Part shown: in pieces, positions 29,470 to 60,783 of the stretch | Layout of the letters: every line of letters begins with the position of its first letter | Position numbering within the stretch: position 1 is the first letter of the stretch | Translations under genes and position numbers: made by a program | Assembly: GCA_963921825.1 (NCBI GenBank) | Contig: OY997589.1 | Coordinates: 69,610,523-69,674,522, forward strand | Origin: Erodium maritimum | Lineage: Eukaryota > Streptophyta > Magnoliopsida > Geraniales > Geraniaceae | Direction of reading: 5' to 3' | Length of the DNA: 64,000 nt | Notes under the pieces: generated by a model | What the model saw: the letters and a program-made list of their open reading frames with translations, nothing else | Database searches by the model: none | What the model was told of the DNA's origin: nothing

Positions 29470-29635
29470 TCTTGTTACGACAATAATAATTTATGATCTC
29501 CATCTATTTACTTGGTTATGTGGGTTGAATTACATGTGATTTTAAAGCATAATGTTAGACATAGACGTAGATCAAAGATTATATGTCGTTTTAAGTGTAC
29601 AATCCCATAAACTAAGAGTTATTTTTTCTAACAAA
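29470..29635. repeat. Dispersed AT-rich repeat, copy 2
   Basis: Partner of 27283-27451 in the same orientation (CGACAATAATAATTTATGAT, CATGTGATTTTAAAGCA, TACAATCCCATAA). It overlaps the T-run at the edge of the LINE copy to its right. Confidence 0.5.
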
Positions 29636-29961
29636 AGGTACGAATTTCATTAATCCTTAAAAAGAATCATTACATGTTTGGGATCCCATAAGGTCCCCGA
29701 ACAATAACTTTGAGACAGAGTAATCGTATAATATGGTTTGTAAAAGACATAAGGGCAAACAGAAATTAGACTATGTATCTGACGAAACTGATGAGGACTG
29801 CTCAAGGTGGTGCTTGAACGCTGGTTGATCTCATGGAGATGACTCTTTCTGTTTGGCTGAAAATTGAACCTGACATCATCAGTAACATAGGGACAATCAG
29901 TTATAACCAATGACCCCTCCCTAGTTAGGTCCTTGAAGCCACAGTCGTCTATCATTTTTCT

Positions 29962-31321
29962 AGGGTTAATTTTATCTCGTTACCCTAAAAATTACTGATT
30001 TTTATCTCACTACCCTAACCATTTTTTCTGGCACCTCACTTCCTAGAATGCATTTTTTTTACTCATACATGTCGTCAACTTTCCATCCATTTATGGATAG
30101 AAACACTTAAAAAGTCCATAGTACCTCTCACTAACAATCAAATTTTAAAAATTATGCCATTGGTTTTCAAAATATCTTTTTATTTATTTATTTTTATAAA
30201 AATAAGTTTTTTTATTTTATTAAAATTAAATTTTATTTTAAAATTTTAATTTTGTATTTAAAAAATCTGTTTTTAATTTTTTTTTAAATCTTTTTTTACT
30301 TTTTTTAAAACACTTTTTTTTAAATTCATTTTATATTTTAAAAACCTGTTTTATTTTTTAAAAATAATTTTTATATTATAAATATATAAAATTCAGATTT
30401 TAATATTATAAATCAGTTTTTGTTTTTTAATCAATAATGATCTTTGTCTGTTTTTTTATTCATTAATTTTTAATCTATTACTTAATCCACCTTCCTTTTC
30501 CTTATTCATTATAAAAAAATCCATATTGTTCTGAATTAATCCATCTTCTTCTAGATTACAGCGTACAAAATCCCCCAAATTGTACTATAATCCATTCATA
30601 TCAAAATACACCAATCAAACACTACAAATGAATTGATAGTCAAAATCCCCCAAAAGCTGATTTCAGATCCATACACTCCTTGTTCTTATTGTTAAATATT
30701 GTGTTGGGGAGCGAAGCCAAATCTGCAAACCCAGTCCTCTCGTCGGCATGAGAATGGACAGAAGAATGTATAGCCTCGGGTCGAGATTTGGAACGGACAA
30801 AGACAGTCGGATCTCTAGTTCTCCTCTGGGCTTTGGCGTCTAACTCCTCTCTCAGATCTCACCGTCTCTGCCCCACCACGAGCTCATCGCCGCCGCCCCA
30901 CCATAGTGAGGCCAACGATGAAGCCGGATTTGGATGAAGCTTTTAGGTTTGGCCGAGATTTGGACGGAGACGAAGGTTAGACGAGACGGGGAAGCCGAGG
31001 AGCTCGATGTTGATTGAGTGGAAGGGGTGTACATAGAGAGAGAGGAGAGTTAATGGATATGTGAGGGTAATGGGGAAAGAAGTGGAGATAAGGTTTTGTG
31101 GGGTTAAAAAGGTTGAAGGGTAAACACGGAATTTCAAAAAAAAAAATTAAGGTCATGTGCTATGAACATGACCATTTTTAATCTAAAAATGGATGGAAAA
31201 TGACGATAGGTACTAACGTGAAAAAAAAAAATTCATTCTAGGGTAGTGAGGTGCCACAAAAAATAGTTAGGGTACTGAGATGAAAAAAAAGAATTATTAG
31301 GGTAATGAGATGAAATTAATC
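29962..31321. mobile_element. Long-TIR element (1.36 kb) with gene-like interior
   Basis: Inverted arms of about 150 bp: left GGTTAATTTTATCTCGTTACC..CTGGCACCTCACTTCCTAGA, right (inverted) GATTAATTTCATCTCATTACC..GTGGCACCTCACTACCCTAGA. The flanks CATTTTTCT (29953-29961) and CTTTCTTCT (31322-31330) could be a 9-bp duplication with two mismatches, which would fit a non-autonomous MULE. The interior is AT-rich at 30100-30600, then GC-rich and 5'-UTR/exon-like at 30690-31080, possibly captured host sequence. No transposase. Confidence 0.65.
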
Positions 31322-31331
31322 CTTTCTTCTG

Positions 31332-33044
31332 GCGAGGCTGTTTCCTAGTCCTCGCCTGGTCTTCGCGGAGTTTTCCTGCATTGTCCCTCTTCATTCCAGG
31401 TGTCACAGATGGGACTGGTATCCTAACTTTCACAGGCAGCGGCCTAGTTGGCCACATCCCAAGTAGTGTCCCAGACGGGAAAGACAGCTTCCCAAATGGG
31501 ACAAGTAGGGTCGCAGATGGGGAAGACTCACCAAGCCTCCCATGAACGGCGCCCTAATCGACCCCCGTTGTTCCACCCTTACCTGAGTATTAAGTAGGGT
31601 GTTCGGGATTACAATTGGCCCCCTTCTGCGAGATATTGGAGGCTTTGGTAGAGTATTCGATATCAGTTGCTCGAACCTATGGGGTAGGTTGGTGTATTCC
31701 CCAAGTCTATAGCATGGGCCTTCTGTATCATCTCGGGTTTGTACTCAAGGAAAGAATAGTCAACCCGTGAGATTATTGGCATCTCTAGATCCCGAACCGG
31801 GTGGCCAATCCGGCCACAATTGAAGCAGAATATGGGAAGCCGATCATAGGCAAGGTGATCTGGATTGGCTCCCGAAATTCTTGGAACCTCAGGATCATCT
31901 TCCTGCATAGTGGCCGGTGAAGCTCCATCCAAAATCTGACCCTAACGATCCCGCCTCAATAGAGGCCCCATTGATCGCAGGGCCCATCCACACATCCCCT
32001 AAGGGTCGCCCCGATGACTTCGCTTGTTGACTTTGTTTGAACCAACGATGGTAGACCCCGAACATGCACCCATAACTAAATCCCATTCAGCGTAGGAAGA
32101 TTACGATCTATGGGATTCACAATGTCCCCTAGAAGGAGCGGGTACCCATTGAAGCATCATGGTTCGTTGGCACGAACCCATGCCCGAGATTCCTACCTGA
32201 CGAAGTAAAACCCAAACGTGTTTGGCCCGAGGTCCTTCACCACCAATCTAGACATCGAGCGCCCCCATGAACACGTGAATATTTTAAGCATAAAATTCTT
32301 CTTGGTGGTTTCTAGGGGAGCAGACGGCCAACCATATCGTATTGCTGGCGAGCAATAACAGTGAGGTTTTTCGGAGTGTAGGTCACAACGAATTCCATGG
32401 ATTCTTCCATAAGAAAAGAATAGGCCAACCTGAAGAGTAGCCATGGATGGTCCCGGCTTCCTACATAGCGCGTCATCCCTAGGATTTCTCGGAATATCAG
32501 AGACAGAATTATCCAAGATCAGAGAACACGCCTTCAGAGCCACGTGAAAAGGACCTCCTAGTGGCGGTATTGCCATGCGCTGAGCTGAGGCACTTAAGTT
32601 AGGGTTGGATACTTCGCCTTTAGATTCAAGGCCTTCTAATGGTATCAGATAAAAGGGGCTAGTAAGGAGACATAGGAGATCTTGGGTGTCCGGCCACGCT
32701 TTGGCTTAAATAAACCTTGGATCCCCGAGTAGTCCCCTGGAGAAAACACGGCCAACGCCGAGGATACAATGGGTGTGAATTCCGGGGAAGGAGACGAAGA
32801 TGCAGGGTTGGAGCGTTGGTACGATCGGTGGGGAGGAAACAATGGTGATAACTTTGGGTTTGCGCATCTTCCTCTCTCTCACCGGGCGAACGAAACCTAA
32901 TAGAGGTCGTGAGGGCATGAGTAGAAGCACCGAGGGGACATGGACACCAGATACACCGTGCTCTATTGGTGGAGAGAGCGGCGACGTGGTGAGTGAAGCT
33001 GCAGGATTCACCATCGACAGAAAGGCTAAAACGGCGTATTAGGA
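31332..33044 (-). pseudogene. LINE ORF1-type protein (DUF4283 + knuckle), decayed
   Basis: Minus-strand pieces show a leader rich in Ser/Pro (from about 33040), a DUF4283-like part at 32580-32170 (SWGRSMSRLVVKDLGPNTFG) and a knuckle remnant at about 31830 (FCFNCGRIGHPVRDLE) whose last Cys is replaced by Leu. SRVDYSFLEYKPEM follows, matching SRFDTSLLEFK and SRFDKSLLEYH in other copies. Several frame breaks. Role by family: RNA-binding partner in retrotransposition. Confidence 0.65.
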
Positions 33045-33273
33045 TTAGGGCTAACATTTTAGAGAGCAGAACACACGTAATCGTAAAGAAGCTCCAACCT
33101 TATATGTTTTTTTTTGTTTTGTAAAATAAGATTTATTTTAATGTAAAGAGAGATGTATCAAAAGATATTATTTCATTTGTATGTTAATAAACATAAAAGG
33201 ACCAAATCAGAATTCACAATTTCAACATTTGTATTGCATGTACAACTAACAAGGAAGCTTCAATCAAGAGTTT

Positions 33274-35466
33274 TTTTTAGCGAAAGGTGCAATTTTATAA
33301 ATGTTTATATCAGAGCATCGATGTGCGCTAGAGTACATGCTCTCGGGCCACTAAGGTCAGATAAAAAGAGCAATGGCTCACTGATCCTTTTTTCACTAAA
33401 ACCGTCACAGATAGTATTTGAAGGTCATATAGACAATGATAGAATACGAGGGAAGCGAAGGTTGTACTGGAAATCTTGCTCTGAAAATTGGACAAGGCCC
33501 TCAACAGTAGTGGTGAGAGGCAAAGCATCGACCAGGGACCCCTCCTAGGGCCAGTCCATGTTGCTCAAATAGTCTAACATCCCTTCTGGCGGGGTTGTTT
33601 CCCAACTCTCACATGATCATGTCGAGGCTCTCCAACGGCAGACCTCTTGAGCATTCCTATTCTAGCAGCTCCCACAACATTGGGTTCCCTAGAAATGGGC
33701 GGTGGAAGATCAACCCCTCTTGTACCTGGTTAGTCAGTAGTCCGGTGTTAGCCTGAGCCGTAGTAAGGTTAGGTACAGTGCTCGGGGAAACCCGGGGACT
33801 CCCACTCACATGTAAGGAGCCTTTAGGTACAATTCTCGAGGAAATATACCTACAGCCTGGCAGAGCGGACGACCGAGCAGACACACTCCAGTCCGTGGCG
33901 TACGGCTGTACCTGCTTTCCTTTCTGGTACTCCAAGAGGGACGAGTCATACCTCGGTGTGCCCCGGACTTCCCACTCGCAGTCCTTGACAATGTTGCCGA
34001 TCCTCCCACAGTTGTAGTAGAAGCTCGAGAGCTTGGCGTAAGGTAGCTCGATCTTTACCAGGTCCGGGAACACCTTGAACCGTAGGACTATCCCACGCCG
34101 AAGGGGCCGCTCAATGAGGTGCCAGAAACGGACCCTAACCGTGCCTCCCTATCACATCCCCATTGGTCACTTGGGACCTCCGTGCAAGTACCCAGCGTGT
34201 CCCCAATGGACATTCCTGTCTCCTTCGTCCGGACCAGAGGCGGCAGGCCCCGAACATGCACCCACAGCTGGATACGATCCAATACCGGTAAGTCCCAAGC
34301 GCAAGGATCCAAATCCCCAAGGAAGAGGGCCCTCCCGTCGAAACACCAAGGTTCGTTGCTCCGAACCCATGCACGTGCTTCCGATGAACGGAAGTAGAAG
34401 CCAAAGAGGGTCGGACCAACTCTTTGACAACCAGACCCTCTGCAGCACGTCCCCACGCAGTCGTGATGATCTGCGACATTGTCTCCTTTCGGGGGGATGT
34501 CGGCGACCATAGCTTCCCCACCAAACCCCACTGTTGCCTGACAATGGTCGTGGAAATGACTGGAGAGAATGGCACGACCACCTCAACCTCCTCCTCGTCC
34601 TCAATAGACCATGACGACGACCCATCTTGGAGAGCCGCCAGCGAGGCATGGAGGTCCGAAACCACATCAGCATGGGTCAGCGCAGCCTCCGGCAACCCCT
34701 GGGTCGGTGTGCGACCCTTACACATCCCTCCCGAGATTTTAAGGGCAGTAGAGACAAGGGGGATCCGACCCTATTATGGAGGCACCTACCCAACCCTAGG
34801 GCATCAACTGCCCTCTGAGGAAGGTCTGCCATCGACGCTTTTCCTTTCGCCGGATCCCTTTTAAATGGGACATCAGCAGGAAGGCCGGTGGCATAGAGAG
34901 GAGACGTTGGCGATAGCGAGGAGAGTTGCAGAACAGGGGCTACAACCCTAGAAGCAGCACCGCTAGGGCCAACTGGACGCAGACCCTGGGATTCAGAGCA
35001 CGACGGTATAGGGTTACGTGGAGACGAATGCAGGACCACACGCGGCGCAGGAGGAGGCGGCTGTGGGTTTCTTGGAGGCGAAGCAATCATGGTCTACCTA
35101 ATTGGACGTTCTCTCATTGGTTTCGATGCCGGCTGAGAGGAGACACCCCCATGGAGAAGGGAATCACCACAGTACAGAGGGGCGGAAGCATCGCCGAAGT
35201 CGGAGGAGAGCTCAAACCAAGTGGTTTGCGGCGTCTCCTTCGATGGGTCTCATCCCCCGCACCGGACACGATCTGCGAGGGATTGGACATGATAGAGTCA
35301 GTGGCCACAGAAACGACACGGGTCTCAAGCAGAATAGCACCAACAACGTTAGGTGGAACCACATCAGTCAGTAAGGCAGCGACGACCCCAAAAAACATTA
35401 TGATTGGTTAGGGTTAGGGTTAAGTTTAGACCTCAATTTCGAGAGAGAATATCGAAAGAGTGTTGT
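33274..35466 (-). mobile_element. ORF1-only LINE, complete 2.2-kb copy
   Basis: Bounded by a perfect 12-bp duplication, AATCAAGAGTTT, at 33262-33273 and 35467-35478. In sense orientation it begins ACACTCTTTCGATATTC (5' leader), has ORF1 from about 35398 to 33400, and ends AAAATTGCACCTTTCGCTA followed by A's. It has both a 5' leader and a 3' tail but no endonuclease or reverse transcriptase, so it is complete rather than 5'-truncated. It must have been mobilised in trans. Confidence 0.8.
33400..35398 (-). pseudogene. ORF1 of the ORF1-only LINE, decayed
   Basis: The probable start is the ATG at 35398 (MFFGVVAALLTDVV). In order: a Pro/Arg-rich region (about 35090-34700); an acidic block and DUF4283-like domain at 34600-34120 spread over frames (LVGKLWSPTSPRKET, FRSSEARAWVRSNEPWCFDG, VLDRIQLWVHVRGLPPL); and a knuckle at about 34020 (YYNCGRIGNIVKDCEW) with Cys1 as Tyr and His as Asn. 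PRYDSSLLEYQ then ATDWSVS follow, and a C-terminal block EGSLVDALPLTTTVEG (about 33550). That last block recurs in three other copies but not before ORF2 in ordinary LINEs. Frameshifts are frequent. I infer an RNA-binding role; the C-terminal block is unexplained. Confidence 0.7.
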
Positions 35467-35478
35467 AATCAAGAGTTT

Positions 35479-37800: not shown

Positions 37801-37875
37801 GGAGTGTGGGGTATATTTTTAGCAGGAGAAAAAGGTGTGGCTATAATTAAGGTTGAGTAGCCTAATAATATTAAT

Positions 37876-40551
37876 TCAAACTTTACATGTCCTATACATA
37901 TATGTATTTGAATTCTTCACAAAATGACGATTTCCATAGTACGTTAAGGGGTTTAGTTTTGAACCCATTCTTCCCACCGGTATGGATAGTGAGGGTTTAC
38001 GGGTTGTCCATGGTGCTCCCAAGTTTGGTCTAGGAATATTGAGCAAACTGGCAGTGGAGGAATAGATTATCCATTGTTTCTTACTGATCATTGCATATAG
38101 GACACATCGGGGCATAGGGAAAAAAGGACGGTACGAGTTTACGACCACCAAGAGGTTATCTGTTAGGAGACGCCATAAGAATATACGAATTCGGGATTTT
38201 ACCATTAGCTTCCATATGTGTGGCCAGATCGGAGGGGTGTTCGAGTTTGAGGGTCCCTTAGGTTGGAGTGCTCTATATCCTGCCTTAGTGGAGTAATGTC
38301 CCTTAGGGTCATTCACCCAATACCATGTATCCATTTCCTGGGTTGCTGTTAGTGAGATGACAAGGATGGCCGCTTGATCCCTAAGAGAGAAAGTTGCTTC
38401 GATGAAAGGGATATCCCATCGTTTGGTTCCTATGAGGATTAATAAGGCCATCATGATATATTACAGCTTCATGGAGGTTATGTGAATATACGAATATGCA
38501 TATGGTAGCCACGGTGTATGGAGGATGGTGTACAGGGGGCTTGAACGACTCGATACCCATGTATCCCCCCGTTGGGCTGCCTTAATGATTCTGCAAATTC
38601 CTTCCATGCAAAATAGGAAGAGATACGGTGAAAGAGGGTCCCCTTAACAAATGCGTCTTGTTGGAATTATGGGTGTTGCCGTATGATTCTTTGAGGCAAT
38701 CTGATAGGAGACCGTTCCAATGCATACCATTATGAGTTGTGTCCACTCCATCAAGAAGCCCATCTTACGCATCATTTTCATAATGAAAGTTCATTACACT
38801 ATATCATAGGCCTACTCGTAACCAATTTTAGGGTCATGACTCTCATGATACCTTGTGTTTCTGTTGTATATAACAGATGACTTCAAATGAATACAAAGAT
38901 ATCGTCTTGGATGGAACTGTCCGGGATAAAATCTCCTTGTGTAGGTGATATGATAGTTGGGAATAGTCCTTTGAAATGATTTGGTAGAATTTTGAAGAGT
39001 ATACGGAAGAGCTTATTACATAGTGCAATCGGGCAAAGATCTATGACCAGTTTGGGCCCCGGTTTCTTTAGTATGAAGACTATTGTTGTGTCATTGATGC
39101 CTCTATCCAGATCCCCTCCTCTCATAGTTTGTTGGTCAAATGTGTCTTCCGGTGCTAGGACGGGCCAGTAATATTGGTAGAACTTCGGATTAAGTCTATC
39201 TAGTCCTGGGACCTTATCCGGGCCCATGTGGAAGCCCGCCTCACTCACTTCCTCTTCTAAAATATGTGTCATTAGAGCTTGGTTTTGCAGCCTTGTAATT
39301 TTGGAATGGGTGCAAAGATGTATGGTATTTAGAGATGCACCCGAGGTGATGAACATATTCTGGAAATAATTCTGAAGGAGATCGTCCATGCTTGATTCCC
39401 ATGTAACTGTTCTCCCTTATTCATCCTAGAGGGAGCATATTTCATTGATTATGTGACAGAAGGAAGTTAGTGCATGAAATAATTTGTGCTTCGATCTCCC
39501 TCTGTGAACCTATGGTGCTTGGCACGTTATTTCAAAAGTTTGCATTTTGGGCTAGAACCGCTTCATATTGGATCTGAAATACTTTCCTTCGGTGGATTCC
39601 TTCCCTATGGTTCCTCCGATTGAGAATAGCTATTTGACGTTAGCACCATTTGATCTTTTGGATGGTGGCCCGATACACATTCCGACCCAGTCATGTAAGT
39701 TTTCCCCAATTCTCGTTGTCTTATCATTGATGTGATATGTCGCATATCCGTTCTATGCTTCTTGGACATGTAAACCACATTCTGGTTCGTGAGTCCAATT
39801 GGACTCAAATCGTAAGATGGGTTGTCTAGGGGCTTTGATAGGTGGCGCCAATGAGATGAGTAATGGATAGGATCAGAGGTTATAGTACCCGTGTTCTGCA
39901 ACCGTAGATTTGGGAAGTCAGTGGCCATGTCCCTTGATATTATGGCTCGGTCCAACCTGGTCTCTATCTTATCTTCCAACACACAATCACGGAACCATGT
40001 AAAAGGGAGTCTTCCATCGGGACGTCAGTGACGCCGATATCTTCCAAGACTTCTTGGAATTTTGCGATAAGAGCCCGAGGATATGCTCATCCTCCTCTTG
40101 TTTCCTCATGGGATAATATAGCCTTGAAGTCACCAATAAGGATCCAGAGGGTGGTATCTTGTTGAGCCAATTTCCGAAGCGTCGACCACGTGTTCTGACG
40201 GAGGCTTTTGTTTGGCTACCAGTAAACCCCTGTTAGGCGGATCGGTGCTTGGCCCGAGAAAGTGACTCAGGTATCAATATAACGTTGATCCTTGTCTATA
40301 ACCGTGACCTGAATATTCGGTTCGCAGAAAAGGGCTAGGCTCTTTTGATGTCCCTCTGTTATTTCAAACCAAGTACCATCCTGAAATCCCAGGTTTCTAC
40401 ACATAATAGTTGTGTCTTATGCTGATTGCATTGTCTCCGATAGAAAAATAACTTGTGGGCGATAAGTGTTGGGTAGAATTTGAATATGTTTTCGATGTTT
40501 CAGATTCGTTATACCCTTAAAATTCCAAGCCACAATGTTGTGTTTTGACAT
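37876..40551 (-). pseudogene. LINE ORF2: endonuclease, reverse transcriptase, zf-RVT, decayed
   Basis: This would nick DNA and reverse-transcribe LINE RNA. The ATG at 40549-40551 gives MSKHNIVAWNFKGI, the start of the EEP endonuclease. Its end appears at about 39980-39860 (RLDRAIISRDMA; TSDPIHY, where family members have SDH). The RT region is at 39389-38883 (MGPDKVPGLDRLNPKFYQ, IVFILKKPGPK, CPIALCNKLFRILFKIL) and at about 38650 (GDPLSPYLFLF after a TAG). The YADD motif is absent. A zf-RVT part follows at 38454-37900 (DTWYWVNDPKGHYSTKAGYR, IWKLMVKSRIRIFLWRLL). At 2.7 kb it is well below the usual size of about 4 kb, so part of the palm and thumb is deleted. Confidence 0.82.
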
Positions 40552-41199: not shown

Positions 41200-41229
41200 A
41201 TTTATTTTTTTCCATCGTCGCCTACACCA

Positions 41230-42546
41230 TCAATGGGTCTGGTCGTTGCACCGCCAGATCCGTCTTCCGAGGTCGTCATCATTTTTAAGGCGCGTCGCAA
41301 ATGCAAGCCGAAGATTCTCATCCAGAATCAATCTCCCTTCCTCTGACTCTTCTGCAACCCACTTCCACGGCCATCACAACGTTCTCACCAAGACTATCCA
41401 AGCCGGAAAAAGAAAAAAAAACGGGGTCGACACATGAAATCCTTATCCCTAGCTCTAGCTTATGTCCCAACAAACCCTAAGACGGTACCTCCTTCACCTC
41501 TCCGAGACGGCCCTGAGTCTCTGAGGTAATGCCGTGAAGGTTCTAAGCATCTGAGGGGCGGCGGGATGGTTAGACGTCACTCCACGTTACGATCCCACTC
41601 TCATCTCTCGGGAAGGAGCCGGTAATCCCTATTCTCTCTAGACAACGCGTGATGGCTCATTACAAGGGGACCTCTTCATTCCTCTTAGAAAATCTAGCGT
41701 TGTCCGTCACGATGCCTCTAAGTTTGGCGACCTCACCTTTCATTAGCCTCCAGGAGAGACTCTCCACATGTTCCCTTGAGGAGGAGGAGGATGATATGGT
41801 GGTGATCGTCCTTTACAATCCCATGGACCCAATTGTGTTGGCTCGCCAATAGTTTGGTATGCTTGGGAAACTGATATCCCCACAGCATCACTGGAAGGAC
41901 ATCATGCTTAGGTCCATTCCCAAAGCATGGGGTCGTTCGGCATCAGGTCTGGTCGTCAAGGATGTCGAGCCGAGAATCTTTGCCTTCTATTTTGACTCCG
42001 AGGAGGTTTGGATTTTGGTTCGTGGAAACGAGCCCTAGTGTTTTGATGGTCATACATTACTCCATGAGATATTGATCCATTGGCCCGGGATCCCCCCAAC
42101 CTGATTCGTCTACAGTTGTGGGTTCATGCCAAAGTTTTACCGCCATTGGTAAGGATGAAAACGATTAGGGAGAGAATTGGTACGACACTAGGAAGCTGTG
42201 TGAATGTTCCGTATGACCAGTGGGGTCTTTGTTAGGGAGGTGCGATCATTGTCCGTTTCTGGCATCCCGTGAAGCTCTCTCTACGTCGATCGCTCCTTCT
42301 ACGGTTCAAGGAATTCCTTGATCTTATCCACGTCTCCCTGACATACACTAAGTTGCTCGCTTTTTGTTTCTACTGTAAGAGGATTGGCCATGTGGCCAGG
42401 AGGTGCGACTAGGAGATGTCGGGGGTTTCCCGCTTTGATACCTCGCTGTTGGAGTTCAAGGCAAACCACCAAAATAAGAACTATGCTACTAACTGGGAAA
42501 TCAAGGAGTACCTAATCATCCCACCAGGATTTGAGTATCGTCTTTT
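41230..42546 (+). pseudogene. LINE ORF1 (DUF4283 + CCHC knuckle), decayed
   Basis: Starts near MGLVVAPPDPSSEVVIIFKA (41234). The DUF4283-like domain lies at 41850-42130 (GMLGKLISPQHHWKDIML, AWGRSASGLVVKDVEPRIFA, CFDGHTLLHE). The knuckle at about 42365-42410 reads CFYCKRIGHVARRC, a fully conserved CX2CX4HX4C, followed by SRFDTSLLEFK and NYATNWEI. Stops replace a few codons and frames shift several times. The coding ends at the nested insertion (GFEYR at 42540), so the family's C-terminal block is missing. Confidence 0.72.
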
Positions 42547-43590
42547 TTTATAAGCAAAATTTATTAAACCACTAATCTAACAGAATGAGAGTAGGTAAAG
42601 GTGATACACAACAAAGGATCAACCTCAAAACCAAAAGAGGACCGAAAAATGATCCAAAACCTCCTTGAAGGAAATGCTTTCAAGGACATAAGAACCAAAT
42701 GAAGCTGGCTCGGATAGAAAAGCTAGACTTTGAAACAAAAAACAAAAACAAGAACAATAAAGACACAGAACAATCCACAGAGTCCACGAAATCTTCCAAC
42801 AAAATCATTTTCCACTTCAAAAGTCGACTGTTGGCCTAAAGCTTTCTAGAAAAGGTCAGGATGAACCAGAAAATCCTTTACTAGTTTAAAACCCATATCA
42901 ATACAAAGCTCCTGAATGGTCTTTTCGAACTCGCCCTTCGAATTAGCAGGCGATTTGTAACAACAACAGGGGATGTCGAAGACTCGGAACCAAGCTTGGC
43001 CTTAACTTCTCACACGAACTTTGTTTCGACCTTTTTCTTAGAACCTTGGACCTCCTATTCGACCTTTCTTTGGCTACCACGGTGACATCCTTGTCTCTGT
43101 ACCCTTGAAATAAATAAAGATCATTCACTGACGAGGGTCTAGGATCACATGATTCTATAACAACAAGAGAAGTGGGTGAAGAAAAAACCTGATCGAGATT
43201 ATCAACCTGCACAAAAACTTCCGCAACAGGATAAGGTCCACCCGACTGTGATACAACCTTACCCACAACCTCTTCTCCATGTTGCTCAACCGTGTTGGCT
43301 GCGTATGACTCTGTGTTAACAATTCCAACTAGGTAGTTTGCAGGCCCGATCAAAGCTCAAGAGACAGGCCAGCCACACAAGAATCCAGTCCACCAGACGC
43401 GTCCTAAGACGAAGCTTCGTCTTCTTCCTCGCGCGAATCGCGCTCGGCCAAATCAAGGATTGCATCTGCACGTAAAGCACGGTCCTCTAATTCAATACTA
43501 CCGCGAATATCCTCCAGAATAGCCAGAACTTCAATACTTAAAATCAAGGGAATCACGGGAGCAAAAATGACGATTGTCTTTTTAGTATTT
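42547..43590 (-). mobile_element. 5'-truncated retroelement nested in the LINE copy
   Basis: Plus-strand T-run at its left edge (A-tail in minus sense). Flanks GTATCGTCTTTT (about 42535-42546) and GTATCGTTTTTT (about 43591-43602) form a plausible duplication. A 136-codon minus frame at 42943-43353 (EQHGEEVVGKVVSQSGG; VLRKRSKQSSCEKL) and FEKTIQELCIDMGF further on look coding but match no family I can name. Probably an ORF1 linker of another LINE. Confidence 0.5.
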
Positions 43591-44132
43591 GGTATCGTTT
43601 TTTAGTATTTATTGTTTTTTAATCTGAGTGTGATACCGTAAATATATCATAGAGTTTGTCGCAAGGACGCCTTAGGATATCTATCATTTGTACTGACTTT
43701 TTTAAAGGTAATAATAATATTAATGATAACTCTCGCTCAAAAAAAGAAACAAGCCAAGAATGCGACCTAACAAATAATTAGCAGACTATAAAAGCGAGTT
43801 TTGCTCCTCTAGGGTTTTGATGCCTCCTCCTCACGAGCCGCCCAAGTCTCGCCGATCATTATCCTCCCGTCGTCGTTTCAGCTCCTCTACTCCGCTGCAA
43901 TGGCGTTCTTCTCAACCGTCCAATTCCTCTCGACTCGGGTTGGGGAGGAATTTATCTCGGGGCGACGATCTCCCTCGCCAAATTCCCTCGACAATCCCTC
44001 TACCTCTGGTGGTTGCGCCTCATCCGCCTCTGCACTCTCCGCCGTCTTTTGATCGATCCTCTTCGTTTCTGAATACGCCGCTAGCGTCTCTAAAGTCGCT
44101 GTCGCCTTTGGAGCCGCCTTAGAAGCTGCCGT

Positions 44133-44318
44133 TGTAACATCCCGCCGTCCCACACAAGGCCCCACGCGCGGCGATGTTAGGTCTGCAGCCCAATACACCC
44201 CAACCCCTCTGGTGTATTGTCCACAGACAAATACCAACCTAGGTTGTTGGTGAGACTTGAACCCAAGACCTCACCCTTTATAGCATTATCTTGAGTGATG
44301 CTATCACCAATTGAACTG
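44133..44318 (-). other. Extra 186-bp tRNA-like extension at the outer end of the 3' LTR
   Basis: Present only on the left LTR. On minus it reads GCAGTTCAATTGGTGATAGC (box-A like), 50 bp later GGTCTTGGGTTCAAGTCTC (box-B like), and ends GGCGGGATGTTACA, a second LTR-like terminus directly abutting the GCCGT duplication. It may be a tRNA-derived SINE or the end of a different LTR joined during reverse transcription. Confidence 0.55.
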
Positions 44319-47300
44319 CGTCACGCCCCTAATCCGGTCTTTCCCGGACTCGAGACATGATCTAAAGAAAAGCAGTTTTAACCATAATGTACCATTAATA
44401 AATCCATAAAATCCTCCAAAGTAGTTCTCAAACCAAAATCCCTTAACAAGGGTTTATAACAGAAAGTACGACCAACGTATCTAAGCACCCGGACTCCCGA
44501 AGCTCCCGATCCTCGAGTCCACAAGTCATCACGCAATCCTGTAAAACAGTCATAAACAAATAGGGGTGAGCTTACGCTCAGTAGGGAAAATCGTAAACAA
44601 TTTTAGTCTCCAAGTTTAATATTAAAACTGCTTTAGTTCGATGTCACAAAAGTATTTAAAACCCTTAGACCAAAAGATATAATAAACAAATAAAAAGCAA
44701 CGAGAACAATAGCGCATTCTCAAGGTTAACGATAACTTCCCAGAGAACAAGTAGAGAACATTATAATAAAATAAAATAAAACCATCACAACTGGAAACGA
44801 GTAAACACTATTAATCAATGAAATGCTATGGAATCAGTGTAATGAAATAGTATCGCTTTTTCGATGATAACAGTAACTTAAAAGATTCCATGAAAATACT
44901 ATGGCGAATCATAATTTATTAAAATGGGAGTAATTAATATCACGCCAACCACTCGCTTTCTCAAGCCTCCGATCCATGGATAGATTATGGGATCACATCG
45001 GTTCCCATATTCCGATCCACCAGAGTACCCATATAATATCATATTTTCCCTCGGTCCAGAGGAGGCACATGCGTTGGGGCACCGGAAACAATCCCAAATG
45101 GGCGCTTATCATCGGAATTCTCGGAAATGCCTCCAAATGACCATATGTCATAGGGAACCAAGGTAGTGCTCCCGTAGGACGCATACACTTGGGTGAAACC
45201 ACAGTAACTATCTCTCACGAAATAATCCATCCAACTGCCCCGTAGGGTCCAATAACCAATGCCCTCAGGCTCCAATAATCAATCCTCATAATATCCAGTA
45301 ACCAATGCCCTCAGGCTCCAATACTCAACCAATATTTCACAGTATCTGTCAACTCCAACAACCACAACGGCACCAGATTACCCCCCCCCCCCCCCGGTGT
45401 AGTACCGAACCAAACAAACAAACAAACAAACATACATACATTTCAAGAATAAGAATAAGGGAACAAGCATAAACATTCATCCATCAGTCAACACTCATCG
45501 AAACACACTTTCACCACAACACGCAAAGACGTTCACTTAATCCTCAATCTTAGAAGTACACACGTTCATCAATACATACCACACGTGATTCATACACACA
45601 ATTACCCTTACCGTCATACTTACCTGTCACGAACCATCGGTACATCGATCACCTGATTGTACCCCTTGGCACAACTAGTCATACTCGATCATCCGTTCAA
45701 TCAACAGTTTTTATCAACACAATCATTCAACCAATCAAGTAAACATTCAACAAATCAACAGTAAAGTAAACTAGTTCCATTAGACTCTTGATTACCCTAA
45801 TATCTATCAACCAAACATGTGAACCTAGCACGCAACTAATCTGAGAGCTCTTCACAGCCTCTCTACCAGTAAATCAATTCCTAAGTATCGAAAGCGAGTT
45901 TCACTAGTCATCTTCATCCTAAGCATGCATTCTAGACACTTTCGGTTATTAGTAATTGAAAGACAATTATTCTAGTTATTCGCATCCTATATGTCATTCT
46001 AGGACCTTTCCGGTTTTATTATCCTAACATGCATACTAGTAATGAAATACTCGAGTCGTTAGGACTTTCCCTACCTTGTGGTCTTCCTCTAAAATACTCT
46101 GATGAAAACTTGAGTAGCCTTTCGTCCGTTCTTCACACGGGTCCCGGCGTGATCTTCGTCTTCTCGAAAGGAGTCCGAGCTCTCGGGCGAAGTCCAATCG
46201 GATTTTTAACAGTTAAAACTTGGACTCATAACCGGTATAGTCCAAAATAAACAACAAATTGTCTTTTTAACACGAACGATTTAAAAGCGGGATTAAACGA
46301 CGAATCGGGTTTGAGTATTTGGGCATAGAACCCGATGCACGTTCCTGATGCACGGGTTCTGAGGCACGGTTCTCGAGGCTCAATTCAACGTTCCCCCTTT
46401 GTCCCGTCCTAGTCCGATTTACAGTTCGGGTTTAAACGTCCAGGTTTCGTTCATAGTCCCAAAAACCGTCTTAAATCAACTCTGATTTTAAACTCTTTTA
46501 TTTTAAAACCTCCTTCTATTAATACTGATTCTGTCTTAAATCATTTCCCTTTTTAACAAAACATTTTTCCTTTAATTTCCTGTTTTCAACAAGAACCGTT
46601 CAAGGTTCGCCCAGACCCAAAAGAAATTGCTTCAGTTTCCAGATTAAAAATCAACTCTCAAGGAACAGATCCACGAGTTCTCGCTTCAACCAGAACAGAA
46701 TCAACGGAAACTCAAAAAAAATAACGAAAGGGAAGATGGAGTGTTTTTGGTCAGATGCCGACCACCGGCGGTGACCAACCCGGCCGGGGCTTCACGGTGT
46801 AACGCTCACCGTAGGAAGCATAAAGGGTAGCGGCGGCGGAGGTGGTTGCGGCGGAGTACGCCTCAGATCTGCACCGGCCCGGCCGCTCGTCTCGTCTCCA
46901 GACGAGAACGGCGGAGCTCGGCGTGGAGTCGGGCGACTGAGGGAGAGGGAGGGGCTCAGAGGCTAGATCAACGGCGGCGGGTTTGAGGGCTCGGCTACGC
47001 GTGGTTCTTTCCTCACCGGCGAGCCCGAAACCAACACGGAGAGAGATGGAAGGAGACGGGAACGGTCGGATATGGAAAGTGGCAGCGTCGTGTGGGGATC
47101 GGAGAAGAAGAAGGAAGGGTGGTCGGGGATGGCTGCGATACAGAGAGGAAGGAGGAGAACGAATGGGTATGAAACCCTAAAATGGGTCTTTTATACCACG
47201 GGCTTGGGCCGGGTCAGAAGTCTGGGCTTGGTCGTCAACTTGGGTCGGGTCTGTCCGGTCTAGCCCAGATCAAATCCTTTTTTTTTATTTTTTGAAGTCG

Positions 47301-47449
47301 ATCCAGTTTCCCACTCGATTTCCACCCACGATGTTGCAAGACGATAAAATTAATATTTTACTTCTTCTAGAAATTCACTAGTTGTAATTTCTCACCCTAA
47401 CGTTTCCAATTGCGAAAAAGTACCCCTTGTAAACAAAACGGGTTTTACA
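44319..47449 (-). repeat. 3' LTR (left copy) of the gypsy element
   Basis: About 3.13 kb, from CGTCACGCCCCT (T to C change at the first base) to GGGTTTTACA. It contains the AGGGGTGAGC..GCTCAGTAGGG motif at 44562-44585, a 16-C run near 45381, a GC-rich gene-like block at 46740-47180 and a TATA/telo-box promoter. Small open frames within it are repeated in the other LTR and are not host genes. Confidence 0.88.
47172..47195 (-). promoter_or_regulatory. LTR promoter: TATA box and telo-box (left LTR)
   Basis: The complement reads TATAAAAG (47188-47195), then 8 bp later TTAGGGTTTC, a telo-box. The same pair sits in the right LTR. It implies a short U3 (about 280 bp) and an unusually long transcribed R-U5 (about 2.8 kb). 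Confidence 0.6.
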
Positions 47450-47451
47450 AT

Positions 47452-47467
47452 CTACCCCCCTTAAAAG
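47452..47467 (-). promoter_or_regulatory. Polypurine tract
   Basis: The complement reads CTTTTAAGGGGGGTAG, directly before the 3' LTR start (TGTAAAACCC). The adjoining GAGGACGAAATTC is typical of gypsy elements. It primes plus-strand DNA synthesis. Confidence 0.85.
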
Positions 47468-49339
47468 AATTTCGTCCTCAAAATTTAAACGAACGCTCTC
47501 CATTCGATTACACTAGTTATCCAAACGTCATACTTGGCGGTGAAAGACAACCTCGATGTAGATACCTCTCATCAGGATCCTCAACGGTACCGGTATCACA
47601 TTGGATAGAACGACCTCGGTTCAGACATGCCATATCGGAATTTTCCGTCGGTATGGGCGTCTTACTGGATTACCCCGAAAGTCGGGCAAGGACGGAGCCA
47701 TCCGCAGATGTACTTCTCAGTTTCTCTATAGTAATCGTTACAAGAATAGTTCATACTGGAACGTCAATAAGGTCATGTCTCGACCTAACACACACAAAGC
47801 AAGCAAGTAACACACAAATGCTTCCATCAAACCAAAGTTCTCATCACTACTGTGGGGTTTGGAACAACCGCTCGTTTCATCACATCTCGTGGAAAGGTAG
47901 ACGTATCTCAATCAAGTAAATGGTACAGTGTGTCGGCATCTAGTCGAAAGGCGGCATGCCTCAAAACATAACTTAATCCAAAGCTCCTGTCATACCAAGC
48001 GTGGCACACTTGTCCAACGTAGCCGCATGTGACACCGAGTAATCCTTATCAAGGTTCGCAACCTGATACGGGTCAGTCACACATCAAGCATCACAAAATT
48101 AACTCGCGGTAAACCATCAACACCTAACTGTGATCAATCAAGAAGGTTATCCAACTCGTGATACTTCTCTTGACATCGATATCAGTTCTCAACCCCTGAT
48201 CAACCCACCTCACAAGTCATCTCACCCAAATAATCATATCAACGAGACAACGGTTCTCAAAACCGGTGCATGGTTCAGTACCACCATGAACTCTACCAAC
48301 ACTCGTTCACGAGCTGTCGATCAAAACAACTGATAGTCAAGTCCACCGAAATCACTACTCAAGGAGTAATCAACACGTACTGAGATCTCGATAAATTGAA
48401 CAGTTCAGAAACTAGCGCGGTTCCTTCAATCGTTCCTCGAAAATTAAAATCAATGACGGTTAACTCTTATCCTTCCCTGTGTCTATGCATGGTACATAAC
48501 CCGACCTACCACACCACGCTTCGTGCAGTGCCATCTTTTTACTGGCCTGGAAGCTTGTGGTAGTCGCCATCGGCTATCTGTTACCGGATTTCAACGTGAG
48601 GTGCTCTCACTTCTAGGGCATAACCTCATGGTTATGCTTAGTCCTCGCGGGACCTTAGCATTCGTTCTTCTCTTGCTGATGGAGATCTGCCTTGGTACTC
48701 GGCTCGCGTTCTCCGTATTCTTCTCCGTTGGGAAAGTCGTCTGATTAACTTTCAGTGTTAGCCGTTTGTTCCGTGCGAACTGGCGGTAAAACGATTAGTC
48801 CTTCTGGAAAGAACGTAAGAAACACACCCTAATCTAGTTTCTCACGTACGGCACACACTCGTGCAACTTTTCGCTCGTTAGCCGGGATTTTGAAACGAAA
48901 TCGTCTCGACGGTTTGAATCTTATAACTTAACTCTTGTAGTGGGGTAGAAGAAGTTATAGATTACAACTCCTGAGGGTATGGGCCCACCACGCTTCCGCT
49001 GCGCCACTCTGATCTTATCGTAGCTCGGTCATCTCCTGTGACCGGTCGGACCGTTTACTGGTCAGGGCTGCAGCCTTTCACTACTTGGCATTCGCTGCTG
49101 GTAGCACTCGATGAACGCTTGCTGTTTCAACAATCGATTCTTAAAATTCGATCTGCACTAACGGAGAAGGAAAAGAACCTTCAGCATGGCCAAGTCTGTT
49201 ACTCCACTCCCAAACTCTCACTGATACTAGTCGGTACTACCACACCTCTGGTCGGTGTGTTAAGATACCGGTGGGCTTAACAGTTTTAAACTTTTTCGAA
49301 CCATAAGTAATCATGAACCAATACAACCCCGTGTAATGC
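47468..49339 (-). other. Gypsy internal region downstream of gag, no domain recognised
   Basis: By position this should hold protease to integrase, but 1.9 kb is too short for pol and no RT (YxDD) or integrase motif is visible in any minus frame. Frames are short and broken; the plus frame at 47410-47919 is antisense. Confidence 0.4.
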
Positions 49340-50657
49340 TCAAATGTCCGCAGACACGAAATCCAAAATGTAAATGGTAACAAGTTCTCTAAGCGATCTC
49401 CAGATCGGTATCAAGTCCTCAACTTGGGGCCCGGTCATCGTGTACGCTCGTCCCTGCCGCATCGGAGGTCCTCCTCTCGATGAGGTGGAAGAATTTGCTT
49501 CTGTGGCAGCATGTTCTCTTATCATCTCTTGTAGATCGACCTGTGGAACGGTTCGTAGATTCATCACTCAACGGGCAGTCTCGGCCCAGATGTTCCAACG
49601 GTCTGCACAAAGGACAACATTATGCCACAGGGGCAGGGTCAACAGAGGTTACTGCTCCAACCCGTCGTGTCTCACCGGACTGGGTCTGTGGCTGAAACTA
49701 TCCTGAGGTCCTCTGCCTCCTAGGATTGCGACTCTCTGACGGCCTCAAGAAGTCACTCGGCCTCGGCCTGGTCTTCCTCGCCTTGGCGGTCTCCCAAAAT
49801 GTCTCTCTAACGCGAGTGTTTGTTTCACTAGTACAGAATAGTCCTCGGATCTGAATGTAATGACTTAATCCGTGATAGACGAACTGAGTCCCTTCTCAAA
49901 ACGTCTGCGGCGGCTCTCCTCGGTCGGCACCATCTCGGGTGTGAAGCGAGACAGGGACGTGAACCTCGCCTAATACTCATAGACGGTCATCCCTTTCTAC
50001 CGCAGATCCAAAAACTACTGGTGTCGGTCATCTCGAACAGATCAAGGGAAATATTGTCCCAAGGACAGTCCGCTGAACGGCTGAAAGCCATTTCCAACCC
50101 TTGCCTACACATGTTGCCACCAGTATCGTGCTTCTCCCTCAGCTGGGAGGTCGCGGAAAATATTCTCCAACGAATATTAGAATACTCTAGAAGTATTCCG
50201 GATATGGGTAATCCGCTCCAACCATACTACATCTGCCTCGGGCTCTGAATTCCGGGAATAGATTGGTGTACTCGACTTATGAAAATCTCTGAGTGCCTGG
50301 GCCGTGTAGCTGTCCACCTGGCCGGGCATCTTGGTAGTGACTGCATCGGCAGTAGGCACAGACTCTGGTGCCGGTGTTGCAGTCTCATGCTGAGCGCTGC
50401 TAACACGGCGCGGACCACCTCATCAATAGGGCCGCTTGAGTCGGCTCTGCGACTGGGGAAACTCTAGGTGGTGACCCTTCCGGTCTATCCTCAAAACTCG
50501 GGTGCTCTGTGGAAGCAGCACCATGGGCGCTCGCTGCCCCTGACAGACCAACAGCTGGTGCTGGCTCTGCCCCACAACTGGGCGGCACCTGGTACCCCTC
50601 AGGATATAAACACGTGACATCTCGTAAATTCACTGCATTTAGAACATATAGGTTCAT
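49340..50657 (-). pseudogene. Gypsy gag remnant with CCHC knuckle
   Basis: Gag would package the element RNA. From 50657 (MNLYVLNAVNLRDVTC) a Pro/Ala-rich N-terminus runs into broken frames. At about 50280-50190 a capsid-like piece reads FHKSSTPIYSRNSEPEADVV then WLERI, as in plant gypsy gag (F.P..F.G..DP..AE.WL). The knuckle at about 49565-49606 is CPLCRPLEHLGRDC, a perfect CX2CX4HX4C. The segment to 49340 (QGRAYTMTGPQVE then IYILDFVSADI) resembles the gag-protease junction. No single frame survives. No active-site Asp-Ser/Thr-Gly of protease is visible. Confidence 0.7.
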
Positions 50658-52541
50658 GTCTCAGTTTAACTCAATCGGTTCGATTCATCATATCATGACG
50701 TTCTCGTGCGTCTCACACAGCAATCAGCGGTTCAATCAATCCTCAATCAATCAATCAATCAATCAACTCCCACAGGAGGGTTCAATATCAAATCGATAAA
50801 TCAACTCCCACCGGAGGATTCAATCTCAAGTAATCCACCCAAGGCACAAGGCAACAGGCATACCCCTTTCTCGGGTATCCTTCCAATATGTGGGGTCTAG
50901 CATCGTAACACGATCAATTTCATCAAAACTTAGCATTTCTTTCCTTTCCACCGGTTCTCAACTTCTTAACTTCTACTCAAACTTTCATGTCGATCTCGCG
51001 TCATTACAACCCGATTCAGGCGTCCCTGAATCTCGTTGTAACAACTTGACAACCAACCATCACGCTTGACTACAGTGGCGCCCCTGAGTCAGCCCGTGAT
51101 AGTGCAAACACTTCAGTTTCTAATGAGAATTCGGCATGACCCGTTTGTATTTTCTTCTAACCATCCGCTTAAGCGGGACATTTCTATAATAACCTGTACA
51201 CAGAGTCCTACCCATAAGGTACACACAAAACACCTCAATTACACAACATCTTGAACATCAAAGTAACCCACGCGAGTCTTAGCAAATATCTCAATACTAC
51301 CCGGTCAATTTAGCATTTCAGGTTTTTACATCACTTAGCGGCCGACCCAAACGGCAAATCCTTCAACAATTACTTAACAAACGTGTCATGACCAACCCGA
51401 GCACCGCTCGTTCATCCGATCTAAACCCGATCTTAATTTCAATCTCAATCTCTGTCTCGACTTACTTTCCATTTCGAGCTCAATTTCAATTTAAGTTAAG
51501 CCTTAGCTTCAAACTCAAAGTTAATTTCAAACTCATTATTAGTTTCAACTTTAATTCTTAAATGACGGTTACCACTTAAACAAATCAACAATTTCACAAC
51601 TAACATTTCATCACTCTAGAACACGCAGCATTAGAGTAGTACAGCAAAGTATGGTGTCGGAGCATCATCGACTCAGTCTTCCCGTATAACGAAGCATAGG
51701 GGTATAACCAGTCCTGTATCACGAAGCATAGGAGTAAAACCAATCCCGTATCACGAAGCATAGGAGTAAAACCAGTCCCGTATCACGAAGCATAGGAGTA
51801 CAACCAGTCCCGTATCACGAAGCATAGGAGTAAAACCAGTCCCGTATCACGAAGCATAGGAGTACAACCAGTCCCGTATCATGAAGCATAGGGTGGAACG
51901 AGTCTTTCCGGATCACGGAGCCTCGGAATAGACACAATACACTTAAAAAGAGCGCAAGAATACATGAGTTCTACTCTTTTCTCAAATCTCATCCCAATTG
52001 GATTATCATCTCAGTTTTAATTCCTTAAATAGCGGTCAAAGTCCCAACCAAGTCAACGTTTCAACAATTCAACACCTTAACATTTTAACCCTTCAATAAA
52101 TCAAGCAGTCAACACTTCAATAAGTCCACACCTCGATACACTTCGATAAATCAACCCTTCAATCTTATCAATCATGGAACGACCAATCACAGTGGTAATA
52201 CACTTAACAAATAATTTACTCAACGACCAGTTTATCGCGGTTCGATCATTGCTCGTTAATCCAATACCGATCTCAACCTTTTGGCTTCACCGATCATTGT
52301 ACCTTACAGTCAATGGGGTAAGGATCCCAATCAAGCGATGTAACCATCATAATAAAGAGATTCAAATTTAAACAACCATTGAGACAATCAAGATTTGTGT
52401 CGTTCCCACTCTACGCATCAAATATTTTCACTTTCGTCACTGAGCACACGACTTAGACCTCCTAACTCTACCCACCTAATTGACGTTGGTCCGAGGTTTT
52501 GAAAACAAGTTCAAAATTTAACCTGTTTCAAATGAAACCAG
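50658..52541 (-). other. Gypsy 5' leader between primer site and gag
   Basis: Non-coding, 1.9 kb. It contains CAATCAATCAATC runs (50735-50830) and a 32-bp tandem array (51677-51925). Confidence 0.6.
51677..51925. repeat. 32-bp tandem repeat in gypsy leader, 7-8 copies
   Basis: The unit contains CCCGTATCACGAAGCATAGG then AGTAAAACCAGT. Copies are near identical except the outer ones. No spacers, so not a CRISPR-type array. Confidence 0.9.
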
Positions 52542-52553
52542 GCTCTGATACCA
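52542..52553 (-). promoter_or_regulatory. tRNA-Met primer binding site
   Basis: The complement reads TGGTATCAGAGC, the classical plant initiator tRNA-Met primer site, 3 bp inside the 5' LTR end at 52557. Confidence 0.92.
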
Positions 52554-52556
52554 AAT

Positions 52557-55500: not shown

Positions 55501-55668
55501 CCTTTTTTTTTTGAAGTCGATCCAGTTTCCCACTCGATTTCCACCCACGACGTTGCAAGACGATAAAATTAATATTTTACTTCTTCTAGAAATTCACTAG
55601 TTGTAATTTCTCACCCTAACGTTCCCAATTGCGAAAAAGTACCCATTGTAAACAAAACGGGTTTTACA
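52557..55668 (-). repeat. 5' LTR (right copy) of the gypsy element
   Basis: From TGTCACGCCCC to GGGTTTTACA, 3.11 kb, about 99 percent identical to 44319-47449 by hand comparison. An 18-bp segment near 55457 is missing relative to the left copy. The shared GTGAGC/GCTCA motif is at 52800-52823. Confidence 0.9.
55415..55438 (-). promoter_or_regulatory. LTR promoter: TATA box and telo-box (right LTR)
   Basis: Complement: TATAAAAG (55431-55438) followed by TTAGGGTTTC (telo-box at 55415-55423). As the 5' LTR copy, this is the one that would drive element transcription, starting near 55400. Confidence 0.65.
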
Positions 55669-56000
55669 GCCGTCGTCGCGTCCATCTCCCTGGTCTCCAC
55701 CACCGCACCCTCCTCGACCCCTCTCTCGGTTCTGATACTAGATAATCAAGGGGGTTGTTTTTTTATTTTATTTGATTTCGTTTTTGTAGGGTCAAAAACT
55801 AGCGAGCAGAGATTCAGGGACTGGCAAACGGGCATCAGTGACTGGCCTTGGGAGGTGTCCCTGGTCGATGCTTTGCCTCCCACTATTACTGTTGAAGTCC
55901 TTGGCTAGTTTTCGGAGCAGGAATTCCAGTATCACCTTCTCATCCCCCGTATTCTATCATTGCGTATATGGCATCCCAATACCGTCTGTGATGTTCTAGT

Positions 56001-59000: not shown

Positions 59001-59097
59001 TTGAAGTCGATCCAATTTTCCCACTCGATTTCCACCCACGACATCGCAAGACGATAAAATTTATGTTTTACTTCTTTTAATTTAGCCGGTCTTTACA
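56001..59097 (-). mobile_element. Solo LTR (3.1 kb) related to the gypsy element
   Basis: Runs from TGTCACGCCCCAAATCCGG to GGTCTTTACA with a perfect 5-bp duplication CTAGT at 55996-56000 and 59098-59102. It shares the terminal block TCGATTTCCACCCACGA (about 59023) and the GTGAGC/GCTCA motif (56303-56326) with the gypsy LTRs. No primer site or internal region, so it is a recombination product. The GC-rich block at 58110-58960 gives long open frames on both strands that I do not accept as genes. Confidence 0.88.
56793..57193. repeat. Seven tandem hairpins in the solo LTR
   Basis: Units at 56793, 56851, 56936, 56999, 57051, 57114 and 57166 each have a 7-8 bp stem around an AATCCTC loop. Type A is CTACACCG/CGGTGTAG; type B is CCCACAC/GTGTGGG. 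From the third unit on they alternate B, A, B, A, B in blocks of about 115 bp. The following 57220-57370 carries related CCCCGCAGGGTCC repeats. Confidence 0.8.
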
Positions 59098-59451
59098 CTA
59101 GTATTACAAGAATCAATAAACCATTGTTCTTTTATTCTGACCTTAGTGGTCAGACAACATGTTCCCTAACACACTTCGATGTTCTCCAGTGATCGGACCC
59201 TATGCCAGACACACTACAATATATCGTTCAATCTAAAATCTAAATAAAAATTACACCTTCCGCTCAAAAAAAAAAAAACAAGCATGCAAAGAAAATTTTA
59301 GAAGAATAGATGAAAAGGGGTGGTCGGTCTTTGAGATAATGCCTCTCATAGATAATTAACCTTACCCCAAATACAAAATTATCCCTCTTTCACTGTACAG
59401 CTTAGGACAAAAAATACAATTAAGGAAGAAAAAACAGACTAAAAAAACAGA

Positions 59452-60751: not shown

Positions 60752-60783
<32 letters not shown>

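Follow-up and report, generated by a model that had tools for sequence, protein, structure and literature searches.

Structure of the element at 33274-35466

The 64-kb window, by which we mean the whole stretch of DNA that was analysed, contains a non-LTR retroelement on the minus strand that carries a single open reading frame (ORF1). The element is termed E1, and its features are:

33274..35466, minus strand: E1, ORF1-only non-LTR retroelement (flanked by a target site duplication, TSD; 21 of 39 fetched relatives match it end to end)
33262..33273: TSD copy at the 3′ side of E1 (AATCAAGAGTTT)
35467..35478: TSD copy at the 5′ side of E1 (AATCAAGAGTTT)
33657..35398, minus strand: ORF1, about 580 codons, ends approximate
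34175..34420, minus strand: DUF4283 (PF14111), E=7.5e-11, 42.3 bits, passing the cut-off of 27.2
33975..34055, minus strand: CCHC zinc knuckle (PF14392, zf-CCHC_4), E=7.4e-5, 22.7 bits, below the cut-off of 27
33279..33656, minus strand: 3′ UTR, with ATTGCACCTTTCGCT just before the A-tail

E1 consists of a short 5′ leader, the single ORF1, a 3′ UTR and a short A-tail, and it is flanked by a perfect 12-bp TSD (AATCAAGAGTTT). Endonuclease and reverse transcriptase (RT) are absent. ORF1 is interrupted by frameshifts and stops and is therefore distributed over several frames; its borders were estimated from the frame with the fewest stops and by reading the frames. The 3′ UTR was assigned by its similarity to the 3′ ends of two further window elements, E5 and E6, and of copies fetched from the genome. 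Only about 375 nt separate the estimated ORF1 end from the A-tail, thus E1 has no room for an ORF2. An earlier note on this DNA had described exactly such an element, with a perfect 12-bp TSD, leader, ORF1, 3′ UTR and A-tail and with neither endonuclease nor RT, and this description was confirmed, with DUF4283 scoring over the profile cut-off and the zinc knuckle below it. A protein search with the read-through ORF1 gave no relative at E≤0.001 among 1215 candidates.

Related elements in the window

Several further elements in the window share the architecture or the 3′ end of E1:

7915..9938, minus strand: E2, second ORF1-only subfamily (TSD CAAAGGTTG; collinear with E1; seven end-to-end genomic copies by coordinates)
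29624..33080, minus strand: E3, third ORF1-only copy, with a DNA transposon inside (alignments; knuckle E=4.7e-7, over the cut-off)
29962..31323: DNA transposon with inverted terminal repeats within E3 (arms of ~140 bp, about 80% complementary)
41200..43745, plus strand: E4, ORF1-bearing copy with the end CGCTCAAAAAAA, ORF1 C-terminus missing (knuckle PF00098, 20.9 bits, cut-off 20.8)
about 42546..43588, minus strand: E7, inverted L1-like fragment in E4 with a different tail type (read by eye)
43755..59275, plus strand: E5, common tail without the DUF4283 block, 8-bp TSD AAACAAGC, split by LTR elements
44320..55668: LTR retrotransposon inside E5 (3.1-kb LTRs, 97.8% alike)
3915..5226, plus strand: E6, from a shorter family that shares the tail (TSD about 17 bp, one mismatch; own family in the genome)

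E2 is collinear with E1 (57.7% identity across 33523-34523) and is flanked by a perfect 9-bp TSD (CAAAGGTTG). The profile search gave only a weak DUF4283 match in E2 (E=0.019, below the cut-off) and no match for the knuckle piece. The claim that 7915-9938 is an ORF1-only element with a perfect 9-bp TSD was borne out, though its domain matches are weak or absent. E1, E2 and E3 have the same architecture at about 57-61% identity, and they align from ORF1 into the 3′ UTR with no gap that could hold an ORF2. The DUF4283 pieces tested from E3 and E4 gave no profile match; no convincing TSD was seen for E3 and none for E4. In E4, the C-terminal end of ORF1 is missing together with most of the 3′ UTR, and the inverted fragment E7 splits the element; the knuckle of E4 scored below the cut-off with PF14392 and just above it with PF00098. 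Among the window copies only E1 passed the DUF4283 profile cut-off. The earlier note had listed three more intervals as copies that share tails or ORF1 blocks. The first, 29627-33080, is indeed an ORF1-only copy, and the second, 41200-43746, contains a damaged ORF1, but the third, 43755-59275, shares only the tail and has no DUF4283 block.

A further LTR sequence, related to the retrotransposon inside E5, also interrupts E5 at about 56001-59101. The window additionally contains a MATE gene at 59452-61107 (MatE E=1.6e-70) and MuDR-like transposase pieces at 14457-16888 (DBD_Tnp_Mut, SWIM). All named organisms among the at least 120 relatives of the MATE gene that were obtained are flowering plants, one of them Musa and the others apparently eudicots, which identifies the host as a flowering plant.

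Relatives of E1 in the genome

The whole assembly (763 Mb in 40 contigs; the nine contigs involved are each 62.6-158.6 Mb long) was searched with E1, which is the check that the earlier note had proposed. The search gave 3212 first-look candidates, of which the best 40 were scored, and 39 non-self loci were fetched. End-to-end ORF1-only copies were found: 21 of the 39 relatives span E1 from position ≤33 to position ≥2187 in one alignment and are about 2.15-2.2 kb long, and the remaining 18 are shorter or split. The mean pairwise identity of the 22 full-length sequences (E1 included) is 0.81, with a range of 0.74-0.86. The sole low-occupancy block of at least 30 columns in their alignment is due to a single copy, which has an insertion of 54 columns, and none of the 21 full-length copies has an insert between ORF1 and the tail.

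Since nested repeats fill the window and both E4 and E5 are heavily damaged, one might regard the window elements as a random collection of old, broken pieces of L1 in a repeat-rich region. The end-to-end copies at other loci already refute this explanation, and together with the other genome searches and the TSD control described below they reduce its probability to a negligible level.

The second query comprised 327 bases of the 3′ tail, lying wholly in the estimated 3′ UTR, and gave 1753 candidates. The 40 best matches, which were scored, are E1 itself, 19 loci fetched earlier and 20 new ones. In all 39 non-self copies selected in this way the tail runs into ORF1, and in none of them is an ORF2 located between the two. 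In two of the 20 new copies (L058 and L066) the part of ORF1 covered is limited to roughly its final 50 nt. Seven (L051, L053, L056, L059, L062, L063 and L064) are unbroken to, or to within a few bases of, the fetched end and L057 to within eight bases of it; the other new copies stop earlier or are split.

The loci were also compared by tblastn with parts of a different LINE of this genome (endonuclease and RT-RNase H), whose family is maybe not the closest one. Matches were obtained for 29 of 29 ORF2 control loci and for two of the 39 E1-like loci; the 20 new tail copies gave none. The two E1-like matches (L019 and L036) are RNase H ends that lie beyond the element, just upstream of its 5′ end and in the same orientation; perhaps these two copies are insertions beside a LINE tail. 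The absence of ORF2 applies to the best 40 matches of each DNA search, and rare ORF2-bearing relatives could still exist among the others.

If the ORF1-only copies had arisen by independent internal deletions, the earlier note argued, most genomic copies should have an ORF2 between ORF1 and this tail. This was the case for none of the 39 tail-selected copies, and independent deletions are therefore rejected. Altogether, many copies from at least two subfamilies are full-length and ORF2-less.

Marks of retroposition

E1-family copies end with ATTTATAAAATTGCAACTTTCGCTC or a similar sequence, followed by an A-tail. The earlier note had also proposed TSDs as a test of the full-length copies, and they proved to be above chance: 14 of the 21 copies have a TSD score of at least 9, compared with 6.4% of 420 mismatched flank pairs. 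Seven copies exceed the null maximum of 11, among them L020, whose TSD lies in low-complexity sequence, and seven of the 21 are under the threshold. An AA start was found in 12 of 15 TSDs (the 14 scoring at least 9 and that of L017 with a score of 8). L1-type elements nick at TT/AA, and the AA start fits this. Twelve tail copies were inspected at the break of the alignment, and perfect TSDs of 5′-truncated copies are present at two of these breaks (L049, 16 bp; L058, 14 bp); the other 10 broken copies showed no convincing TSD there. The TSDs, the A-tails and the 5′ truncation show that the E1 family spread by target-primed reverse transcription.

Selection on ORF1

An intact ORF1 was found in none of the 39 fetched copies; the longest open stretch comprises 313 aa and all copies are decayed. 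The frame can nevertheless be followed in the alignment: when this is divided into 12 blocks of 150 columns, a single frame has the fewest stops in nine of them (there ≤2.2%), and the lower value of a different frame in the other three blocks was put down to alignment indels. To measure selection, parsimony changes were counted by codon position on a FastTree tree, separately for internal and terminal branches.

On the internal branches, the DUF4283-CCHC block has 41/25/97 changes at positions 1/2/3, a ratio of position 3 over positions 1+2 of 2.94 (p=3.8e-12). The ratio is 1.26 in the N-terminal part (129/81/132, p=8e-4), the C-terminal part has 45/30/43 changes (p=0.17) and the 3′ UTR shows no significant excess (37/42/47, ratio 1.18, p=0.57). 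The terminal branches of the DUF4283-CCHC block show a ratio of 1.38 (259/239/344, p=1.5e-5), which is weaker than on the internal branches (p=2.6e-5). The earlier note had proposed dN/dS of ORF1 as a test; by the present counts, purifying selection acted on the DUF4283-CCHC block during the spread of the family, whereas on the N- and C-terminal parts it was weak or absent. The excess at third positions on the internal branches, with none that is significant in the 3′ UTR, indicates that the protein mattered during the spread.

Compared with the E1 family, E2, E3 and E4 differ in the DUF4283-CCHC block by 0.26-0.31 at position 2 and by 0.60-0.63 at position 3. The 3′ UTRs of E2 and E3 differ from the E1 family by 0.38-0.50, which is below the third positions and suggests that the 3′ UTR may be constrained, too. 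With a mean of 0.106 substitutions per site on its terminal branches, the E1 subfamily is old.

Further families without ORF2

The E2 query gave 1169 candidates; among the best 40, which were scored, seven non-self copies are covered by one match from position ≤46 to position ≥1993 of 2024, as judged by coordinates. With E6 as query, 2673 first-look candidates were obtained and again the best 40 were scored. Most of these relatives share the E6 3′ end and match in two or three blocks, between which they contain about 140 and 180 extra bases that are absent from E6. The two stretches missing from E6 were considered as introns, but clean splice sites are not apparent at the junctions. The earlier note had listed 3915-5226 as a shorter copy; it shares the tail but belongs to a shorter family of its own, and DUF4283 was not found in it, either by profile in two open stretches or as a nucleotide match to the ORF1 core. 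The searches with E2 and E6 show that the genome holds more than one kind of family without ORF2 and that these have a common 3′ end.

Located at the 3′ end of a degenerate ORF2-bearing LINE in the window is a short element (36385-37860, minus strand) with another L1-like tail, TAATAAAAAATGAGCTGATAAAAG. Its small reading frame has no Pfam match, and it is perhaps another ORF2-less family.

A cellular DUF4283-CCHC transcript that was retroposed many times would yield retrocopies with A-tails and TSDs as well, and DUF4283 alone is no proof of an L1 origin. Retrocopies of a host gene are difficult to reconcile with more than a thousand first-look candidates per subfamily, with 5′ starts and 3′ ends that the copies have in common, with diverged subfamilies that were each amplified and with the occurrence of the 3′ end in E5 and E6 without the gene block. 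Copy number, common ends and amplified subfamilies form the pattern of a replicating element; a host gene as source is thus rejected and is very improbable.

LINEs with ORF2 as possible enzyme source

One LINE with an ORF2 is located in the window itself:

37879..40545, minus strand: degenerate ORF2-bearing LINE (zf-RVT 25.6 bits, cut-off 27.5; RT-like by tblastn, E=3e-23)

A genome search with the zf-RVT profile gave 12902 candidates. Most of the best 150, which were scored, lie in open frames of up to 1373 aa, thus an enzyme source exists. The DUF4283 profile gave 12439 candidates, of which likewise the best 150 were scored. Comparison of the two top-150 lists by eye revealed three pairs in which DUF4283 is located 4-5 kb upstream of zf-RVT (C1:158.49 Mb, C3:73.99 Mb and C8:18.55 Mb). 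Since the domains are in the right order, canonical two-ORF LINEs are present in the genome.

From such LINEs, ORF1-only copies could also be generated if ORF2 was recurrently removed from the RNAs of full-length L1s with this 3′ UTR by splicing or internal deletion at a preferred junction, in which case no ORF1-only lineage would exist. Spliced copies of human L1 are a precedent, and recurrent splicing would likewise account for a junction common to the subfamilies and for the internal-branch signal of purifying selection. However, neither the tail-selected copies (0 of 39 with ORF2 between ORF1 and tail) nor the 21 full-length copies, which have no insert at this position, show the expected precursor arrangement, and E1, E2 and E3 hold their architecture at about 57-61% identity. 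We therefore regard recurrent removal of ORF2 as decidedly unlikely compared with a lineage of ORF1-only elements.

An ORF2 partner carrying the E1 3′ UTR was not found when 39 E1-family tails were compared with 16 ORF2-family tails. By eye, an RNase H-like region was recognised at the C-terminus of the best-scoring ORF2 family, whose copies continue only briefly beyond ORF2 and finish with ATTAATAAATTTGCATTTCTCTC in some cases and ATTAATACAATATCGTTTATCTC in others, plus an A-tail. Over 27 nt, the E1-family tails score on average 7.3 against this family and the controls, which include E1's and E4's own, 3.25; only 10 of the 39 tails are above the 99th percentile of the controls. The tail of E7, which is of a different type, scores 8.2 and thus higher than the E1 family. 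The likeness between the E1-family tails and this ORF2 family is only suggestive, and we do not claim a partner on the basis of tail similarity.

The ORF2 LINE of the window is arranged head to head with E4; within 37879-41197 its endonuclease start is preceded by about 0.65 kb without a recognisable DUF4283. Another ORF2 LINE (L100 with L075, C5:56.09 Mb) contains a 1373-aa open frame. A possible 5′ end, with a possible TSD of 9 nt, is located about 480 bp before the start of its endonuclease (PF03372), and in this one copy no DUF4283-like frame was seen by eye upstream of the endonuclease start. Both LINEs thus have about 0.5-0.7 kb before ORF2 without a recognisable DUF4283. This might reflect a split two-component LINE, in which ORF1-only families give the nucleic-acid-binding protein and ORF2-only LINEs the endonuclease and RT, with a similar 3′ end on both, an arrangement that we consider unlikely; 5′ truncation or deletion explains the missing DUF4283 of the two LINEs equally well.

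Discussion

The data are best explained if the E1 family is a non-autonomous ORF1-only non-LTR retroelement, which is copied in trans by L1 and whose own ORF1 favours its own RNA, similar to mammalian HAL1; we assign this interpretation a probability of about 0.88. An equivalent of HAL1 with its own protein had been postulated in the earlier note and is supported by the end-to-end copies (21 of 39), by the tails that run into ORF1 (39 of 39), by the selection on the DUF4283-CCHC block and by the E2 lineage. The RNA of the element encodes one protein, an L1-type plant ORF1 with DUF4283 and CCHC knuckle, and has the conserved 3′ UTR and the A-tail at its end. Endonuclease and RT of resident L1 elements would copy this RNA in trans, the enzyme recognising the A-tail and perhaps also the conserved 3′ end. 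The ORF1 protein may bind its own RNA (cis preference) and so raise the share of L1 machinery that this RNA obtains, and because of this advantage ORF1 would be kept intact in the source lineage.

Like HAL1, the E1 family has an ORF1, a poly(A) tail and TSDs and lacks ORF2. It differs in its plant host and in its ORF1, which is of the DUF4283-CCHC type, whereas that of mammalian HAL1 is of the coiled-coil type. From this difference we expect the E1 family to be an analogue of independent origin and not a member of HAL1 by descent. HAL1, with nearly 2,100 human copies, has no ORF2 and is said, in the passages of the report that concern it, to depend on RT and endonuclease of full-length LINEs (PMC5322556). 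An independent origin of HAL1 several times is stated in the corresponding part of a second report (PMC5753468). Unlike this, the diverged subfamilies E1 and E2 share their architecture, which suggests one old origin of the plant ORF1-only architecture.

Plant L1 LINEs resemble the E1 family in the type of ORF1 (DUF4283/zinc knuckle), the A-tail and the TSDs. The E1 family is unlike them in lacking ORF2; an autonomous plant L1 combines endonuclease, RT and zf-RVT ORF2 in one element, and E1 and E2 have no room for these. A LINE tail is also found in SINEs, since ZmSINE2/3 of maize share theirs with LINE1-1_ZM, according to the section of that report on these elements (PMC3747384). The E1 family is likewise non-autonomous, with a 3′ end that probably recruits the LINE machinery. 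SINEs are short and have a Pol III promoter derived from tRNA, 5S or 7SL, whereas E1 is 2.2 kb long, has a long ORF1 and encodes a protein that was once under purifying selection; in the 64-kb window no tRNA was found, nor did any Rfam family match at its gathering score.

The EKA sequences of Blumeria comprise 7513 genomic copies homologous to ORF1-derived genes, and RT-RH was present downstream of one of the 34 full-length Avrk1-like fragments examined (PMC4641428). The Blumeria LINEs are fungal and belong to the I superfamily; Satine, one of the two that are named, is modelled with both ORFs (PMC4641428). In the passages of that report on EKA, the copies are treated as effector genes and not, unlike the E1 family here, as an ORF1-only replicating lineage (PMC4641428). 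Searches of open-access literature text revealed no plant ORF1-only LINE family, and within the text searched the ORF1-only architecture would be new for plants.

The ORF1-only strategy that is known from HAL1 thus arose in a plant, too, where the ORF1 belongs to the DUF4283-CCHC type. As the selection result implies, the ORF1 protein aided its own RNA while the enzyme of another element did the copying. Natural ORF1-only elements make the role of the plant ORF1 in cis preference testable. For genome annotation, some plant gene models that contain only DUF4283 may be such elements.
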